The notes under the pieces were generated by a model. The model was not told the origin of the DNA. It saw nothing but the letters and a program-made list of their open reading frames with translations, and ran no database searches. A stretch of DNA of 64,000 nucleotides from Acidobacteriota bacterium (GTDB lineage Bacteria; Acidobacteriota; Blastocatellia; UBA7656): positions 1-64,000 of the forward strand of contig JBFMDH010000014.1 of NCBI GenBank assembly GCA_040754075.1, written 5' to 3'. Position numbers and translations under genes: made by a program. Position 1 is the first letter of the stretch. Each line of letters begins with the position of its first letter. Of this stretch, positions 2,923 through 9,957 are shown in pieces.

Positions 2923-3010
2923 AAGACCGGGTTGGCGCTGAATGCCCGGTTTAAAAATCGTATCATTTGATAAAACTACGGCGGCTTATTAAAAAATAAA
3001 AATAATTTTC

Positions 3011-3040
3011 TTGACTTTGACTTTAGCGAATTAGTATTCT
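3011..3040 (+). promoter_or_regulatory. Candidate sigma70 promoter of the sulfur operon
   Basis: A TTGACT hexamer at 3011-3016 is followed after 18 bases by TATTCT (3035-3040). TAGTAT (3032-3037) at 15 bases is an alternative. It sits just upstream of the first aptamer in an AT-rich stretch, where a leader-RNA promoter is expected. Assigned by pattern only. Confidence 0.45.
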
Positions 3041-3056
3041 GAGCCTTCAACGTCAT

Positions 3057-3102
3057 CGTGGTGATTTAAGCAAATTGCTCCACGTAAAAAATGTGCTAAA
3101 CC
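3057..3102 (+). promoter_or_regulatory. SAM-II riboswitch aptamer, copy 1
   Basis: Matches the SAM-II (metA motif) layout piece by piece. P1 is CGTGG 3057-3061 with CCACG 3080-3084. The P1 loop has TGATTTAA, four bases, then ATTGC, the same spacing as the classical metX aptamer. An A-rich joint follows, and then the pseudoknot-forming 3' strand GCTAAAC at 3095-3101. SAM-II aptamers bind S-adenosylmethionine and shut off methionine-pathway genes. A second copy lies 120 bases downstream. Confidence 0.85.
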
Positions 3103-3121
3103 GCGGAGAGAAATTTTAAAA

Positions 3122-3150
3122 GCCTCGCGCAGTTTAGCGCGGGGCTTTTT
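3122..3150 (+). terminator. Intrinsic terminator of SAM-II copy 1
   Basis: Stem GCCTCGCGC 3122-3130 with GCGCGGGGC 3137-3145 (G-T pairs allowed), six-base loop, then five T. The loop and 3' stem contain GTTTAGC (3132-3138), complementary to the aptamer strand GCTAAAC (3095-3101). A competing antiterminator that SAM binding would prevent is therefore visible in the sequence. Confidence 0.8.
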
Positions 3151-3176
3151 CATTTTGGTTCTTTGCACTGTTTTTT

Positions 3177-3222
3177 GTGGCGATTTAAGGCAACTTGCTC
3201 CACGTAAAAAACTGCTAAACAG
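3177..3222 (+). promoter_or_regulatory. SAM-II riboswitch aptamer, copy 2
   Basis: P1 is GTGG 3177-3180 with CCAC 3200-3203. The loop reads CGATTTAA, then GGCA, then ACTTGC, followed by an A-rich joint and GCTAAAC at 3214-3220. It keeps the key SAM-II blocks but differs from copy 1 at several positions, so the two are diverged duplicates rather than a recent perfect repeat. It lies 155 bases before the ThrC-like start and has its own terminator. Confidence 0.8.
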
Positions 3223-3242
3223 TCCGGTGTACTCTATACGAT

Positions 3243-3274
3243 GCCCCGCGTCATGTTTGGCGCGGGGCTTTTTA
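3243..3274 (+). terminator. Intrinsic terminator of SAM-II copy 2
   Basis: Perfect stem GCCCCGCG 3243-3250 with CGCGGGGC 3261-3268 and a run of T after it. GTTTGGC (3255-3261) in the loop can pair with aptamer strand GCTAAAC 3214-3220 (one G-U pair), the same antiterminator geometry as in copy 1. Confidence 0.85.
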
Positions 3275-3358
3275 TTTTTGTCTGGTGAATTGAGGTAAAC
3301 CCCTTGAACACAAATCCGCCATCAGCCAACTGCTTGTTTTGAAAAGGAGAGTACAAAT

Positions 3359-4597
3359 ATGAGTTTCGTCAAAAATCTGCAATGTCGCGAATGCGGCGCA
3401 ATATATCCTAAAGAACCGATTGCCGGTTGCTCAGAATGTTTTGCGCCGCTTGAAGTCGATTACGATTACCAGGCTATTTCCCGCCATCTTTCACACGACA
3501 TCATTCAACAACGAGAAAAAAATCTCTGGCGTTATCGTGAACTGTTGCCGCTTGAACAGGAACCCGTCGTTGGACGCGCCAGCGGCTTTACGCCGCTCAT
3601 TCGCGCAGACCGTTTGGCGCGGGCGCTTGGCGTCGAACGCCTCTACATCAAAAACGACAGCGTCAACGCGCCCACGCTTTCGTTCAAAGACCGTGTGACT
3701 TCGGTTGCGATCAACAAGGCGCGGGAATTCGGCTTGCAGGCGGTTGGTTGCGCATCAACGGGCAATCTCGCAAATTCCGTTGCTGCACAAGCGGCTGCCG
3801 CAGGACTCCCGGCTTACATTCTGATTCCCGATAATCTCGAAAAAAGTAAAGTGGTCGCGACGCAGATTTTTGGCGCGCGGGTGATTGCCGTGCGCGGCAA
3901 TTATGATGATGTCAATCGCCTGTGCACCCAAATCGCCGACCGTTTTTCGTGGGGATTCGTGAATGTCAACTTGCGACCGTTTTATGGTGAGGGTTCAAAA
4001 ACCTTCGGGTATGAAATCGTCGAACAACTCGGTTGGCGCGCGCCCGACAATATCGTTGTGCCGATGGCAGGCGGTTCATTAATCAGCAAAATTTACAAAG
4101 GCATCAAAGAGTTTGAAAAATTGGGACTCCTTGCGGGTGAAGCCAATACCAAAATTCACGGCGCGCAAGCCACGGGTTGCAATCCCATCACCACAGCCGT
4201 TAAACAACGCACCACCAAAATTCGCCCCGTAAAGCCCAACACCATCGCGAAATCATTAGCGATTGGCAACCCTGCCGACGGTTATCACGCCGCCGGCATT
4301 ATCGCCAAAAGCGGCGGCTGGGCTGAGGATGTAACCGACGCGGAAATCGTTGACGGTATTCGCTTGCTTGCCGAAACCGAAGGCGTGTTTGCCGAAACCG
4401 CAGGTGGCGTCACCGTAGCGGTTGCGAAAAAGCTGATTGAACAGGGACACCTCAAACGCGATGAACTCACGGTAATTGCCATCACCGGTAACGGATTGAA
4501 AACTCAGGAAGCCATCGAACTCGCGCCGCCGCAAATCATCGAACCGAAATTAATCGCTTTTGAAGCCGCCATCGGCGCATTGAGAGCAACGGCTTAA
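3359..4597 (+). CDS. Threonine-synthase-like PLP enzyme, candidate homocysteine synthase
   Basis: 412 residues of fold-type II PLP enzyme. An N-terminal zinc ribbon has Cys9, Cys12, Cys24 and Cys27. The PLP lysine is Lys110 in LSFKDR, and TGNLANS forms the phosphate/substrate loop. By family it is a threonine synthase, which acts on O-phosphohomoserine. Control by two SAM-II riboswitches, and a sulfur-carrier gene 97 bases downstream, argue instead for homocysteine or methionine synthesis from the same activated homoserine; that function is inferred. AAAGGAGAG (about 3341-3349) precedes the ATG. A genuine threonine synthase under unusual control remains the alternative. Confidence 0.8.
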   Translation: MSFVKNLQCRECGAIYPKEPIAGCSECFAPLEVDYDYQAISRHLSHDIIQQREKNLWRYRELLPLEQEPVVGRASGFTPLIRADRLARALGVERLYIKNDSVNAPTLSFKDRVTSVAINKAREFGLQAVGCASTGNLANSVAAQAAAAGLPAYILIPDNLEKSKVVATQIFGARVIAVRGNYDDVNRLCTQIADRFSWGFVNVNLRPFYGEGSKTFGYEIVEQLGWRAPDNIVVPMAGGSLISKIYKGIKEFEKLGLLAGEANTKIHGAQATGCNPITTAVKQRTTKIRPVKPNTIAKSLAIGNPADGYHAAGIIAKSGGWAEDVTDAEIVDGIRLLAETEGVFAETAGGVTVAVAKKLIEQGHLKRDELTVIAITGNGLKTQEAIELAPPQIIEPKLIAFEAAIGALRATA

Positions 4598-4601
4598 TCA
4601 A

Positions 4602-4646
4602 GTGATGAGTAATGAGTGATGAGTAATGAGTGATGAGTAATGAGTG
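4602..4646 (+). repeat. Short tandem repeat, 14-base unit, about 3 copies
   Basis: A GTGATGAGTAATGA unit is repeated head to tail directly after the ThrC-like stop. The same word family recurs at 22434-22494, so it is a dispersed intergenic microrepeat of this genome. No function is visible. Confidence 0.8.
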
Positions 4647-4694
4647 CAGGTGGTTTTATATATCACCTGCGAATGAAATAAAGGAGAAATGATT

Positions 4695-4970
4695 ATGTCA
4701 CTAAAAGTTATTATTCCGACCCTGCTTCGTAAATTCACCAATGACAAAGAAGAGGTCGAAGCGCAAGCCACAACGATTAAAGAATTGATTGAAACCCTCG
4801 ATTCAAACTATCCGGGGTTTCGCGCGCGGGTGTGCGAAGAGAACGGCGATTTGCGTCGCTTCATCAACATCTATGTGAACGGCGAAGACATTCGCTTCCT
4901 CGATGATTTAGCCACGCGCACTACGGATGGCGCAGAAATTTCCATCGTTCCGGCAATCGCTGGCGGATGA
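4695..4970 (+). CDS. ThiS/MoaD-family sulfur carrier ending in Gly-Gly
   Basis: 91 residues of ubiquitin-like beta-grasp protein. It ends exactly at IVPAIAGG, so the diglycine tail can be adenylated and thiocarboxylated without trimming. It resembles CysO of mycobacteria, which delivers sulfide to CysM, and HcyS-type carriers in homocysteine synthesis. GGAG at 4683-4686 is eight bases from the ATG at 4695 and only two from the ATG at 4689, so 4695 is chosen. It lies between two fold-type II PLP enzymes; which one it serves is not settled by sequence. Residues 1-91 of the fusion at 7859 are a paralog of the same length. Confidence 0.85.
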
Positions 4971-5068: not shown

Positions 5069-5827
5069 ATGATTGATTTAAAAGATAAAGTGGCACTCAT
5101 TACCGGCGCGTCGCGTGGCATTGGCGCGGCGGCGGCGTTGAAATTTGCAAAAGCGGGCGCTGCGGTAGTGGTCAATTATTTTCGCAATGAAGCTGATGCC
5201 CATCGGGTGGTTCGCGATTGTCATTCGCTTGATGCGCGCGCCATTGCCGTGCAAGCCGATGTTTCGCGATTTGAAGATGTGCGCGCTTTGTTTGAAAGAA
5301 CGCTTGCCCAGTTCGGGCGATTGGATGTGCTGGTCGCAAACGCCGGTATCTGGACGACGGGCGCAATTGATGAACTTGATGAAGCGAAGTGGCAGGAGAC
5401 GATAGATGCCAACCTCAAAAGTGTCTATGCGTGCTGTCACTTCGCGGCAAAACTTTTTAAACAACAACGCAGCGGTCACATCATCACGGTGTCATCGACC
5501 GCAGGGCAGCGCGGCGAGGCTTTGCATTCGCATTACGCGGCGTCCAAAGGCGGGATTATTTCGTTGACCAAATCCTTGGCTACTGAACTTGGCGAATATG
5601 GGGTGACGGTCAATTGTGTTGCGCCGGGCTGGGTCGATACCGATTTATCTGCCGAACCGCTGCGCGATACGCGCGAACTCGAAAAAATCAATCGCAACAT
5701 TCCGCTCGGTCGCGTTGCTTCAGCCGATGACGTAGCGGGACCGATTCTATTTCTCGCCACAGACCTGGCGCGCCACATCACGGGCGAAATTTTAAATGTG
5801 AATGGCGGCGCGGTTTTATGCGGTTAA
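5069..5827 (+). CDS. Short-chain dehydrogenase/reductase (FabG-like)
   Basis: 252 residues of classical SDR. The Rossmann motif is GASRGIG at 13-19. The NAG motif (NAGIW) and the catalytic YxxxK in HYAASKGG follow, and the C-terminus ends GGAVLCG. It is probably an NADP-dependent oxidoreductase, and such proteins are commonly annotated 3-oxoacyl-ACP reductase. Nothing in the sequence fixes the substrate. Its place between the sulfur carrier and the CysM-like gene is odd, because no SDR step is known in CysO-type pathways. A role in making or recycling an amino-acid precursor is possible but unsupported. Confidence 0.8.
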   Translation: MIDLKDKVALITGASRGIGAAAALKFAKAGAAVVVNYFRNEADAHRVVRDCHSLDARAIAVQADVSRFEDVRALFERTLAQFGRLDVLVANAGIWTTGAIDELDEAKWQETIDANLKSVYACCHFAAKLFKQQRSGHIITVSSTAGQRGEALHSHYAASKGGIISLTKSLATELGEYGVTVNCVAPGWVDTDLSAEPLRDTRELEKINRNIPLGRVASADDVAGPILFLATDLARHITGEILNVNGGAVLCG

Positions 5828-5892: not shown

Positions 5893-6026
5893 CGATGAAA
5901 GGCAAAAGGCAAAATATCGAGCGGGTCTTTGTTGGGTGTGAAGGTGTTGGGCGCTTATTGATACGAAGGTCTACAGAGGAGTTTTTGCCAGGGCTTGTTC
6001 GTGATGTTATCCTTGAACACAGAAGT

Positions 6027-6998
6027 ATGAAAACGAATTCAATTTTGTCCCCCGCTGAAATCGTTTCGTCTGTTGAAGACGCTGCTATCACCCGCGCGCG
6101 CGCGCCGCAGGAAGCCTGGCAATTGGTCGGCAATACGCCTTTGCTGAAACTCAAAAAACTTGCGGCTGAAGGCGTTGAAATTTATGCCAAAGCCGAATGG
6201 TTCAATCCCAGCGGTTCCGTAAAAGACCGACCGGCGCTCAATATTATTTTAGAAGGCGAACGCAGCGGCAAACTCACGCGCGATAAAATTCTGCTCGATG
6301 CGACATCAGGCAACACCGGCATCGCTTATGCCTGGTTAGGCGCAGCCAGAGGCTACCGCGTGAAACTCGCTTTGCCGCAAAACGCCAGTGAAGAGCGCAA
6401 ACGCATTTTAAAAGCTTATGGCGCGGATTTGGTTTTAACCAATCCCCTGGAAGGTTCGGACGGGGCGATTCGCGAAGCGCGCCGGCTTTACAGCGAAAAC
6501 CCGGATTTGTACTTTTACGCAGACCAGTACAACAATGATGCGAACTGGCGGGCGCATTACGAAACCACTGCGCCGGAAATCTGGAATCAAACGCAGGGAC
6601 GGATTACACACTTTGTTGCGGGACTCGGAACCAGCGGCACTTTTGTTGGCGCAAGCCGCCGCTTGAAAGAATTGAATCCGCAAATTCACTGTATTTCGTT
6701 TCAACCCGATTCGCCTTTTCACGGGCTTGAAGGGTTGAAACACATGGAGACAGCGATTGTGCCGGGCATTTATGATGATTCGATTGCCGATGAAAATTTA
6801 GAAGTGAGCACCGAAGCAGCGCACGAATATGCCAGACTTTTAGGCAGACGCGAAGGCTTGCTGGTTGGCATTTCATCTGCTGCCGCGGTTGCCTGTGCGG
6901 TAAACGTCGCGAAGAAAATGCAAAGCGGTGTGGTGGTCGCTATTTTGCCCGACAGCGCCGATAAATATTTGAGTGAAGATTTTTGGAATGGCGAATAA
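6027..6998 (+). CDS. cysM: CysM-like cysteine synthase, carrier-dependent type
   Basis: 323 residues of fold-type II PLP enzyme. The PLP lysine is Lys66 in GSVKDRP and the TSGNTG loop is at 93-98. LEGLKHMETAIVPGIYD resembles the mycobacterial CysM branch, which uses O-phosphoserine and thiocarboxylated CysO in place of free sulfide. The JAMM peptidase directly downstream supports this reading. The open frame extends up to 5895, but the upstream part looks non-coding and homology begins around WQLVGNTPLLKL, so the ATG at 6027 is preferred; its ribosome site is weak. It most likely makes carrier-bound cysteine. Confidence 0.8.
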   Translation: MKTNSILSPAEIVSSVEDAAITRARAPQEAWQLVGNTPLLKLKKLAAEGVEIYAKAEWFNPSGSVKDRPALNIILEGERSGKLTRDKILLDATSGNTGIAYAWLGAARGYRVKLALPQNASEERKRILKAYGADLVLTNPLEGSDGAIREARRLYSENPDLYFYADQYNNDANWRAHYETTAPEIWNQTQGRITHFVAGLGTSGTFVGASRRLKELNPQIHCISFQPDSPFHGLEGLKHMETAIVPGIYDDSIADENLEVSTEAAHEYARLLGRREGLLVGISSAAAVACAVNVAKKMQSGVVVAILPDSADKYLSEDFWNGE

Positions 6999-7083
6999 AC
7001 CAGGGTAGGCAGGATAAGCAGGATAAAATTTATTCTTATCATCTTGCTCATCCCTGTTAAATCCGAATTTGGAGTTTGAACTT

Positions 7084-7524
7084 TTGATTAAGGTCACACC
7101 AGCGCACCTGGACGAAATTAAAAAGCACGGCGAAGAAACCTATCCGCACGAATGTTGCGGATTCCTGATTGGCGAAAAAGCGGGTGACATCAATGTGTTG
7201 CGCATCGTGCATCGGGCGATTAATGAATGGACGAAAAATGAAGGGAGCGAGTCGCAGGCAAACCGTTATTTGATAACCCCTGAACAATCGCGTCAGGCGG
7301 AACTGCGAGCCCGCGAGCAGGGATTTGGGGTCATCGGGTTTTATCATTCGCACCCTGATCATCCGGCACGTCCATCGGGGTTTGATTTAGACCACAGTTG
7401 CTGGCCCTCCGATTCATATATCATCGTTTCGGTTGAAAAAGGTCGGGCATCCGTGCTTAACTCTTTTACGAAACCTGACTACGAGAAATTCGAGCAGGAA
7501 GAAATAGTGATAGTGGAAGAATGA
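7084..7524 (+). CDS. mec: JAMM/Mov34 metallopeptidase (Mec-like)
   Basis: 146 residues with the complete zinc site: Glu23, then His88 and His90 in HSHP, Ser98 and Asp101 (HxH-x7-S-x2-D). Mycobacterial Mec removes cysteine from the CysO-Cys adduct, and HcyD-type relatives trim or release carrier adducts in homocysteine synthesis. No ATG is available. GGAG at 7071-7074 is nine bases before TTG 7084, whereas the TTG at 7069 overlaps that site, so 7084 is chosen. Here it may free amino acids from one or both carriers, and it may also cut the internal Gly-Gly of the downstream fusion. Confidence 0.85.
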   Translation: MIKVTPAHLDEIKKHGEETYPHECCGFLIGEKAGDINVLRIVHRAINEWTKNEGSESQANRYLITPEQSRQAELRAREQGFGVIGFYHSHPDHPARPSGFDLDHSCWPSDSYIIVSVEKGRASVLNSFTKPDYEKFEQEEIVIVEE

Positions 7525-7858: not shown

Positions 7859-9319
7859 ATGTCAATCAATATTTTAATACCTACGGCGCTTAGAAATTTT
7901 ACGGGCGGCAATGACACAGTGGCGGTTGCGGGCAACACCGTCAATACGGCGCTCGATTCGCTTACTCGCCAATACCCGGCATTGAAAAAGCATCTTTATA
8001 ACGAACGCGGCGAATTGCGCCAGTTCGTCAACATTTATGTCAACGACGAAGATGCGCGACATCTTGAAAAAGGCGCCACCACTGTTAAAGAAGGCGATAC
8101 CTTGAGCATCGTTCCGTCAATTGCCGGAGGTTCGGCGGTGGTAGAAAACCGTGTGAAGGAAAGCGCGAAAGATGAGGTTGAGTTGAGCCGCGATGAAATC
8201 CTGCGTTACAGTCGCCATCTCATCATGCCCGAAGTTGCGCTTGAGGGGCAGAAGAAATTAAAAGCCGCAAGTGTGCTCTGCATCGGCGCAGGGGGCTTAG
8301 GTTCACCATTGATTATGTACCTGGCAGCCGCAGGCATCGGGCGATTGGGACTCGTGGATTTCGACGTTGTGGATTTTACCAACCTGCAACGGCAGATCAT
8401 TCATTCCACCGCCAACGTTGGAAAATCAAAATTGCAATCCGCCAAAGAACGCATTAACGAAATCAATCCGTTCGTTCAAGTCGACACTTATGAAACCGCT
8501 TTGACTTCGGAAAACGCGCTGGAGCTATTCAAAGATTACGACATCATCATTGATGGGACAGATAATTTCCCAACGCGCTATTTAACCAATGATGCTTGTG
8601 TGCTGCTCGGAAAACCCAATGTTTACGGGTCGATTTTCAGATTTGAAGGACAGGCGACGGTCTTCGATGCGAAACGGGGTCCCTGTTATCGCTGTCTGTA
8701 TCCGGAGCCTCCGCCACCCGGCTTAGTACCGAGTTGCGCGGAAGGTGGCGTGCTTGGTGTGTTGCCCGGCATTATCGGCGTGATGCAGGCGATTGAAGCG
8801 GTGAAGTTAATTTTAGGCAAAGGCGATTCCTTGATCGGGCGGTTGATGTTGTTCGATGCGTTGAAGATGCGGTTTCGCGAATTGAAACTCAGAAAAAATC
8901 CCGATTGCCCGATTTGCGGCGAAAACCGCACCATCAATGAGTTGATTGACTATCAGGAATTTTGCGGTGTGATACAGCACGACGAAGTGACTGTCGGAAA
9001 AGAATATGAAATTACCCCGCTTGAATTGAACACCAAAATTGCTCGAGGCGATGATTTCGTTTTGGTTGATGTTCGCGAACCGCAGGAATTTGCCATCGGG
9101 CGCATTCCCGGTTCAACGTTGATCCCGCTTGCGACTGTGCCCGAACGATTGCATGAACTCTCGACCGCAAATGAAATCGTGGTGCATTGCAAGAGCGGCG
9201 TGCGTAGCGGCAAGGCGGTTGAGTTAATGAAGCAGGCTGGCTTCCGCCGCGTGAAGAATTTAGTCGGCGGCATTTTGCGCTGGTCTGATGATGTTGACCC
9301 GACTGTGCCTAAGTATTAA
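7859..9319 (+). CDS. Sulfur carrier-ThiF/MoeB E1-rhodanese fusion
   Basis: 486 residues in three domains. Residues 1-91 are a ThiS/MoaD-like carrier ending IVPSIAGG. From about 108 to 375 is an E1-like adenylyltransferase with GAGGLGS (143-149), NLQRQ, CYRC/CPIC zinc cysteines and VPSCAEGG. From about 385 to 486 is a rhodanese with active-site Cys444 in HCKSGVRS. The E1 would activate carrier C-termini with ATP and the rhodanese would supply persulfide sulfur. The carrier's Gly90-Gly91 is followed directly by Ser-Ala, so it cannot be thiocarboxylated unless the chain is cut there. AGGAGAGTGTT precedes the ATG. The poly-Cys leader lies 5'. Confidence 0.9.
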   Translation: MSINILIPTALRNFTGGNDTVAVAGNTVNTALDSLTRQYPALKKHLYNERGELRQFVNIYVNDEDARHLEKGATTVKEGDTLSIVPSIAGGSAVVENRVKESAKDEVELSRDEILRYSRHLIMPEVALEGQKKLKAASVLCIGAGGLGSPLIMYLAAAGIGRLGLVDFDVVDFTNLQRQIIHSTANVGKSKLQSAKERINEINPFVQVDTYETALTSENALELFKDYDIIIDGTDNFPTRYLTNDACVLLGKPNVYGSIFRFEGQATVFDAKRGPCYRCLYPEPPPPGLVPSCAEGGVLGVLPGIIGVMQAIEAVKLILGKGDSLIGRLMLFDALKMRFRELKLRKNPDCPICGENRTINELIDYQEFCGVIQHDEVTVGKEYEITPLELNTKIARGDDFVLVDVREPQEFAIGRIPGSTLIPLATVPERLHELSTANEIVVHCKSGVRSGKAVELMKQAGFRRVKNLVGGILRWSDDVDPTVPKY

Positions 9320-9350
9320 GCTGACATCAAAACAACGAGGTGAAGGCGTT

Positions 9351-9545
9351 ATGAGTAAAGATATCGAAGAAGTAAGTCAAACAGACCTATCTCAAGGTGT
9401 AACACAAGAGCAGGAATTCAAAAAAAAACTTGCCCTTGAAGCTTTGGCGGATTTGCGAGAAAAGTATCACACCCTTCCACCCCTTGATGCAGAAGTTCTA
9501 ATACGTGAGGGCAGAGATGCAGCAAGCCGACGATTTGAAAAATAA
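9351..9545 (+). CDS. Putative antitoxin of PIN-type pair
   Basis: 64 residues, acidic N-terminal half with helical character (EEFKKKLALEALADLREKYH-type pattern) and a short basic tail. I recognise no named antitoxin family. It is called an antitoxin from its size, its overlap of 29 bases with the PIN gene downstream, and the ribosome-site-like AGGTGAAGG before ATG 9351. The longer frame back to 9288 overlaps the upstream fusion gene and is rejected. Confidence 0.55.
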   Translation: MSKDIEEVSQTDLSQGVTQEQEFKKKLALEALADLREKYHTLPPLDAEVLIREGRDAASRRFEK

Positions 9546-9957
9546 CGTTGTAGTAGATGCTAATTTGTTTGTCGTCATGGCTGGCAATGATTCTCGCGGA
9601 CTTTTGGTATTAGAACGATTTGCAGATTGGATTGATAGCGGGGTCAAAATTCACGCGCCTGAATTATCGCGCTATGAATTTGCCAATGCCGTACCCCGGC
9701 TCATTGTTGCAGGCATTTTAATACAGAGCGACCTGGATGAGGCTTTAGGCAAGGTGGATGTGCTACCTGTTCAATATCATCATCTGTCTAATCCGAAACG
9801 AGTGATTGAAATCTCAATTATGCTTGGTCGTCAAAACGCTTATGATGCAGCATACTTAGCCTTAGCTGAAGAACTGAGTTGTGAGTTATGGACATTGGAC
9901 GGCCCGCTATATCGCAACGCAAAAGGCTATGGATTCGCGGTTAATCTTATTTCGTAA
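9517..9957 (+). CDS. PIN-domain ribonuclease toxin (VapC-like)
   Basis: 146 residues of PIN fold. The first acidic residue is Asp14 in VVVDANLFV, a middle Glu lies in RYEFAN, and later acids lie in YDAAYLALAE and TLDGPLY. VapC-type proteins cleave RNA and are held by a cognate antitoxin. GAGG at 9507-9510 is six bases from ATG 9517, favouring it over GTG 9505. The gene overlaps the putative antitoxin, as is typical of these modules. The acidic site looks intact. Confidence 0.75.
   Translation: MQQADDLKNNVVVDANLFVVMAGNDSRGLLVLERFADWIDSGVKIHAPELSRYEFANAVPRLIVAGILIQSDLDEALGKVDVLPVQYHHLSNPKRVIEISIMLGRQNAYDAAYLALAEELSCELWTLDGPLYRNAKGYGFAVNLIS

Follow-up and report, generated by a model that had tools for sequence, protein, structure and literature searches.

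Two SAM-II riboswitches in series, each with its own terminator, as the probable control of a thrC-thiS operon in Blastocatellia

The leader of a thrC-thiS operon in a soil bacterium of the class Blastocatellia (Acidobacteriota) raises the question of whether two SAM-II riboswitches, each with its own terminator, act in series on one operon, and what such an operon would make. The window, i.e., the whole stretch of DNA analysed here, covers bases 1-64000 of contig C14 from the 7.58-Mb source genome. In this leader, GUGGCGAUUUAAGGCAACUUGCUCCACGUAAAAAACUGCUAAAC begins 119 nt after its near-copy GUGGUGAUUUAAGCAAAUUGCUCCACGUAAAAAAUGUGCUAAAC, and a G+C-rich hairpin and then a U-run come after each; when both strands of the window were scanned, the motif was found exactly twice. 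An earlier note had placed two SAM-II aptamers 120 bases apart here, which agrees with the measured spacing, and had described an intrinsic terminator after each, which is borne out by strong hairpins at 3118-3149 (-22.8 kcal/mol, z -5.7), followed by UUUUUCAUUUU, and at 3243-3268 (-24.4 kcal/mol, z -6.3), followed by UUUUUAUUUUU. The features of the leader are as follows.

3011-3040, + strand: promoter-like site TTGACT-18-TATTCT, weak in that the site count equals the shuffle expectation, in an AT-rich stretch just upstream of unit 1
3055-3108, + strand: SAM-II aptamer unit 1, of the first type (GUGGUGAUUU, L3 ending AUGUG), from RF00521, R3 and alignment A3
3092-3101, + strand: UGUGCUAAAC, the P2b/SAM-site strand of unit 1 and predicted 5' strand of an antiterminator duplex with 3132-3141
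3118-3149, + strand: intrinsic terminator 1, with GUUUAGCGCG at 3132-3141 (loop and start of the 3' arm) as the predicted antiterminator partner
3174-3227, + strand: SAM-II aptamer unit 2, of the second type (GUGGCGAUUU, L3 ending ACUG), from RF00521, R3 and A3
3213-3221, + strand: UGCUAAACA, the P2b/SAM-site strand of unit 2 and predicted antiterminator strand (duplex with 3254-3262)
3243-3268, + strand: intrinsic terminator 2, with UGUUUGGCG at 3254-3262 as the predicted antiterminator partner
3345-3349, + strand: Shine-Dalgarno-like AGGAG of the first gene, read from the sequence and overlapping neither aptamer

The site at 3011-3040 was the only promoter-like site found upstream of the pair. 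No such site was found between the units, and both are therefore expected to lie in one transcript.

The assignment of both units to SAM-II was examined with Rfam family RF00521 (SAM_alpha, i.e., SAM-II), which has a gathering score of 36. In a cmscan of positions 2950-3360, this family ranked first and second among all families, with 26.8 bits (E 3.7e-4) for unit 2 (3167-3239) and 24.8 bits (E 1.3e-3) for unit 1 (3048-3119). The search of both segments that the earlier note had proposed thus gave the top two ranks but fell short in score, as both values are under 36, and at the gathering threshold no Rfam family was found in the window. These low scores are explained by L1 and L3 loops that are shorter than the Rfam consensus. 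Across the whole genome, both units were among the top four RF00521 places, together with two copies on other contigs, one before a bifunctional homocysteine methyltransferase/MTHFR gene and one before a peroxiredoxin gene, each single and with its own terminator; weaker genome matches (L005-L008) lacked the core, appeared coding-like and were dropped. R3, a sequence model built only from the copies of other families, with this genome and the thrC leaders left out, matched unit 2 at 3177-3223 with 57.5 bits (E 1.1e-16) and unit 1 at 3056-3105 with 40.1 bits (E 2.8e-11).

The two units also carry the SAM-II architecture. P1 (CGUGG/CCACG and GUGG/CCAC) closes a loop that starts with GAUUU in both, and the P2b pseudoknot of UUGC with GC(U)AA and the SAM-contact strand GCUAAA are present in both, while P2a, formed by L1 and the 3' tail, has 3/3 pairs in unit 2 (GGC/GUC) and only 2/3 in unit 1. 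These positions agree with the SAM-contact residues and the P2a/P2b layout of the SAM-II crystal structure 2QWY. Other classes were rejected: SAM-II long loops (RF01726) scored 18.8 and 17.4 bits against a cut-off of 44, and SAM-V gave no match at E up to 10, with the Shine-Dalgarno at 3345 more than 100 nt 3' of unit 2. The sub-threshold matches to Leu_leader, trpB, F6, PyrG_leader and other families at this locus are terminator hairpins fitting generic models.

A model made from the four copies of this genome found matches in 51 of 58 related genomes, and of 147 Blastocatellia genomes, 102 have an RF00521 score above the cut-off, compared to 0 of 14 controls. The equivalent of the first tandem unit in five relatives passes this cut-off, at 36.3-43.2 bits. 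In a phylum-wide sample, the element matched 28 of 247 genomes, 26 of which belong to Blastocatellia, i.e., within this sample it is nearly confined to that class. All 99 unique aptamers have the same P1 core pairs, UUGC and CUAA, and 93 have GCUAAA; the loop of 81 starts with GAUUU and that of the other 18 with GAGUU. For P2a, 73, 93 and 93 of these aptamers keep the first, second and third pair, where the highest counts in 1000 shuffles were 69, 92 and 92 (shared ancestry uncorrected), and the compensated types include A-U and U-A in place of G-C. The copies precede metH/metF, metY/Z, lysC, sulfite reductase and thrC; in the fetched loci, single units before metabolic genes comprise 37 at metH/F, 18 at metY/Z/B and 9 at thrC, plus others. 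That an AT-rich leader resembles SAM-II by chance beside two ordinary terminators, as the low bit scores and the empty gathering search might suggest, is wildly improbable and is already refuted by the approximately 100 related copies before methionine genes, by covariation and by the held-out R3 matches (E 1e-16 and 3e-11).

The sub-threshold Rfam scores could also be read as indicating a SAM-II look-alike aptamer with another ligand, and changed-ligand variant classes are described for other SAM aptamers in PMC10853860. Taking into consideration the conserved core, the methionine regulon and the control of the same operon by SAM-I or a Met T-box elsewhere, this seems very improbable for the pair.

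Several further observations were made on these copies. The GAGUU loop of 18 of the 99 aptamers (family f3, before metH; L134, L135, L150, L151, L195, L202, L163, L164, L170, L185 and others) changes the first of three SAM-site uridines; these copies are mostly among those over the Rfam cut-off, and their ligand or affinity may differ. A peroxiredoxin gene of the 1-Cys type, which one would not expect to be under SAM control, has a single SAM-II upstream in this genome (L002 1512-1566, - strand) and a tandem in a relative (L177). Genes that, by eye, encode a permease of the TauE/SafE type, an aspartate kinase and a protein resembling nitrite/sulfite reductase also follow single copies (L176, L139, L146, L137), and with these assignments from sequence the regulon extends to sulfur assimilation. 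Many aptamers (L182, L159, L138, L165, L147, L171) have a short UCUUUGAAAA-like or UUUGAAAA motif just before them. Lastly, a contig labelled Sulfopaludibacter (L050, CAMAWS010000359.1) carries a Blastocatellia-like SAM-II with thrC-thiS, which points to transfer or to an error in binning.

Of the 14 tandems detected among the fetched loci, 13 stand before a thrC-type operon and one before peroxiredoxin. First units are 78% alike among themselves and 72% alike with their own partners. The base before GAUUU is T in 12/14 first units and C in 13/14 second units; L3 differs by type as well (AUGUG/AAAGCG in first units, ACUG in second units), and so does P2a. The pair is thus old, and neither member is an interchangeable copy of the other. 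A recent duplication of one unit within the genome was rejected because the positional counterparts in other genomes are closer than the partner, and the description of the aptamers as diverged, made in the earlier note, is upheld in that units 1 and 2 are distinct old paralogues.

One alternative is that unit 2 alone is a working switch and that unit 1, a duplicate in decay, does no more than lower basal transcription through its terminator. Unit 1 does score lower than unit 2 with RF00521 and R3 (40.1 vs 57.5 bits with R3), its P2a is weaker, and some relatives have a single unit of the second type before thrC (L126, L130, L186, L182, L159). However, unit 1 retains the SAM-contact core in full, along with a terminator of its own and a predicted antiterminator of 10 bp, the type-specific features of first units are kept across families f1 and f6, and the f6 first units score over the Rfam cut-off, all of which makes decay distinctly unlikely. 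Another reading, which we consider unlikely but somewhat less so, is that the units are tuned differently or to different ligands (SAM and SAH, for example, or unequal SAM concentrations) and give a graded or two-input response instead of a doubled gate. The distinct types, with their unlike L3, P2a and base before GAUUU, would fit this reading, but both units have the same SAM-contact residues, and the differences lie outside them.

In our preferred reading, the pair very probably represents two SAM-II OFF-switches, each complete and acting on transcription, which lie in series on one leader and control a methionine-branch thrC-thiS operon. A terminator is found at most 170 nt downstream in 95 of 102 SAM-II copies, and its loop together with the first bases of the 3' arm usually reads UUUAGC or UUUGGC, the complement of GCUAAA. 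Moreover, in 43 of 56 copies the base that follows GCUAAA can pair with the one preceding UUU(A/G), compared to a permuted mean of 25.6 and a maximum of 39 in 10,000 permutations (ancestry uncorrected), and the pair types are C-G (26), G-C (12) and U-A (2), plus wobbles. Complementarity of at least 8 bp within the same locus was found in 44 of 91 copies, with a maximum of 34 when partners were swapped. Because most copies share GCUAAA and UUUAGC, complementarity is high even between permuted partners, and the argument for an antiterminator therefore lies in the flanking base and the own-locus excess. Several first units of the f6 family have no complete UUUAGC partner, which counts against the antiterminator. 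The aligned copies directly show the core of the aptamer, covariation within P2a, the terminators, and the complementarity, itself covarying, of GCUAAA(N) to (N)UUUAGC/UUUGGC.

The predicted antiterminator duplex has 10 bp and -12.1 kcal/mol in unit 1 (3092-3101 with 3132-3141) and 9 bp and -9.5 kcal/mol in unit 2 (3213-3221 with 3254-3262). In folds of truncated transcripts, the pairing of GCUAAA with the terminator appears from transcript ends 3136 and 3259 and is gone at 3144 and 3266, i.e., it is confined to a short interval before the 3' arm is complete, after which the terminator takes over. The minimum-energy fold of the full-length transcript is always the terminator, so the antiterminator could act only kinetically, during transcription, which would be the usual regime for such switches. 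At low SAM, GCUAAA would pair with the emerging terminator loop and the polymerase would read through; with SAM bound, GCUAAA would be held in P2b with loop UUGC, the terminator would form and transcription would stop. Since a transcript would have to pass both gates, read-through should approximate the product of the two, giving a tighter shut-off and a somewhat steeper, pseudo-cooperative SAM response for which contact between the units would not be needed. In ideal-model arithmetic, the 90-to-10% range would shrink from 81-fold with one gate to about 40-fold with two independent identical ones, and leakiness would be multiplied; a steeper SAM response from the pair is thus plausible, if modest in this model.

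The genes downstream of the pair are as follows.

3359-4597, + strand: threonine-synthase-like PLP enzyme of a ThiS-linked clade (TIGR00260 above cut-off)
4689-4970, + strand: MoaD/ThiS-family sulfur-carrier-like protein, adjoining thrC
5069-5827, + strand: SDR oxidoreductase, likely in the same operon
5895-6998, + strand: cysteine synthase CysM-like PLP enzyme
7069-7524, + strand: JAMM/Prok-JAB peptidase (Mec-like)
7859-9319, + strand: ThiS-MoeB/ThiF-rhodanese fusion (carrier activation)

Just after this sulfur-carrier operon, at 9288-9957, a small ORF and a PIN-domain-like ORF resemble, by eye, a VapBC toxin-antitoxin pair.

Across phyla, 76 of the 80 homologous loci have a ThiS-like carrier directly after thrC. 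Among 23 loci tested outside Blastocatellia, nine (in Planctomycetota and others) have SAM-I directly upstream of thrC and two have a T-box with an AUG (Met) specifier, read by eye. Besides this ThrC, the genome encodes two homologues (34-36% identity), and searches of it gave no match to MetX, PF04204 (homoserine succinyl/acetyltransferase) or DUF39/HcyBio and no OAH sulfhydrylase over cut-off. The leaders with SAM-II, SAM-I or a Met T-box (window 3359-4970, L043-L122), along with the lack of matches to MetX, PF04204 and DUF39, suggest that the ThrC and ThiS of this operon may make homocysteine from O-phosphohomoserine and a carrier thiocarboxylate; the main alternative is that this ThrC is a cystathionine synthase with O-phosphohomoserine as its substrate. 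PMC5764234 mentions a protein-thiocarboxylate pathway, and a literature search for thrC with a sulfur carrier and O-phosphohomoserine found nothing on the ThiS-linked ThrC clade. A broader reading, which we consider unlikely, holds that the units diverged anciently, became specialised in affinity or kinetics and were kept mainly for thrC-thiS to cover two SAM ranges or time scales, with the operon encoding an undescribed homocysteine route in which a threonine-synthase homologue would use O-phosphohomoserine and ThiS-thiocarboxylate.

The view in the earlier note that no tandem SAM-II pair of such layout had been described does not hold, as a 2022 survey (PMC9481103) reports 44 tandem SAM-II, some with an intrinsic terminator per aptamer and called "pseudo-cooperative". 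The pair in the window likewise has two SAM-II aptamers in series, each with an intrinsic terminator, in one expected transcript. The survey's main text, as far as accessible, names no organisms or genes, and some of the 44 may be from Blastocatellia. The paired layout and the sensor class are thus already known; what appears to be new is the Blastocatellia SAM-II regulon, the predicted antiterminator and the putative SAM/methionine control of thrC-thiS. A literature search, with important subscription papers outside its reach, found no paper on SAM-II in Acidobacteria, and an earlier listing is possible. These copies, which the Rfam cut-off partly misses, extend SAM-II to nearly a whole bacterial class, and the predicted antiterminator offers a testable element for a SAM-II transcriptional switch.

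Compared to the SAM-II of Sinorhizobium meliloti metZ (PMC9373788), the units share P1, the GAUUU loop, the UUGC/GCUAA P2b and a short P2a, as well as a downstream terminator and the association with met genes. While the Blastocatellia targets include metH/F and thrC-thiS, the proteobacterial SAM_alpha regulon comprises metY, metA, metX, hom, metC and metW (PMC4239095), with neither metH nor thrC. The tandem SAM-II/SAM-V of Pelagibacter (PMC9481103; PMC11508383) also has a pair of SAM sensors one after the other on one leader, with a terminator for the first, but its second unit is a translational SAM-V, whereas the second unit here is a SAM-II with a terminator and the Shine-Dalgarno lies outside the aptamer. 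The SAM-I (S-box, RF00162) leaders of thrC-thiS have the same operon, expected ligand and sign of control with an unrelated aptamer class. Together, these comparisons would place a "threonine synthase" and a sulfur carrier in the methionine regulon, and the convergence of three unrelated RNA regulators (SAM-II, SAM-I and the Met T-box) on the same operon makes the function of the ThiS-linked ThrC clade directly testable.
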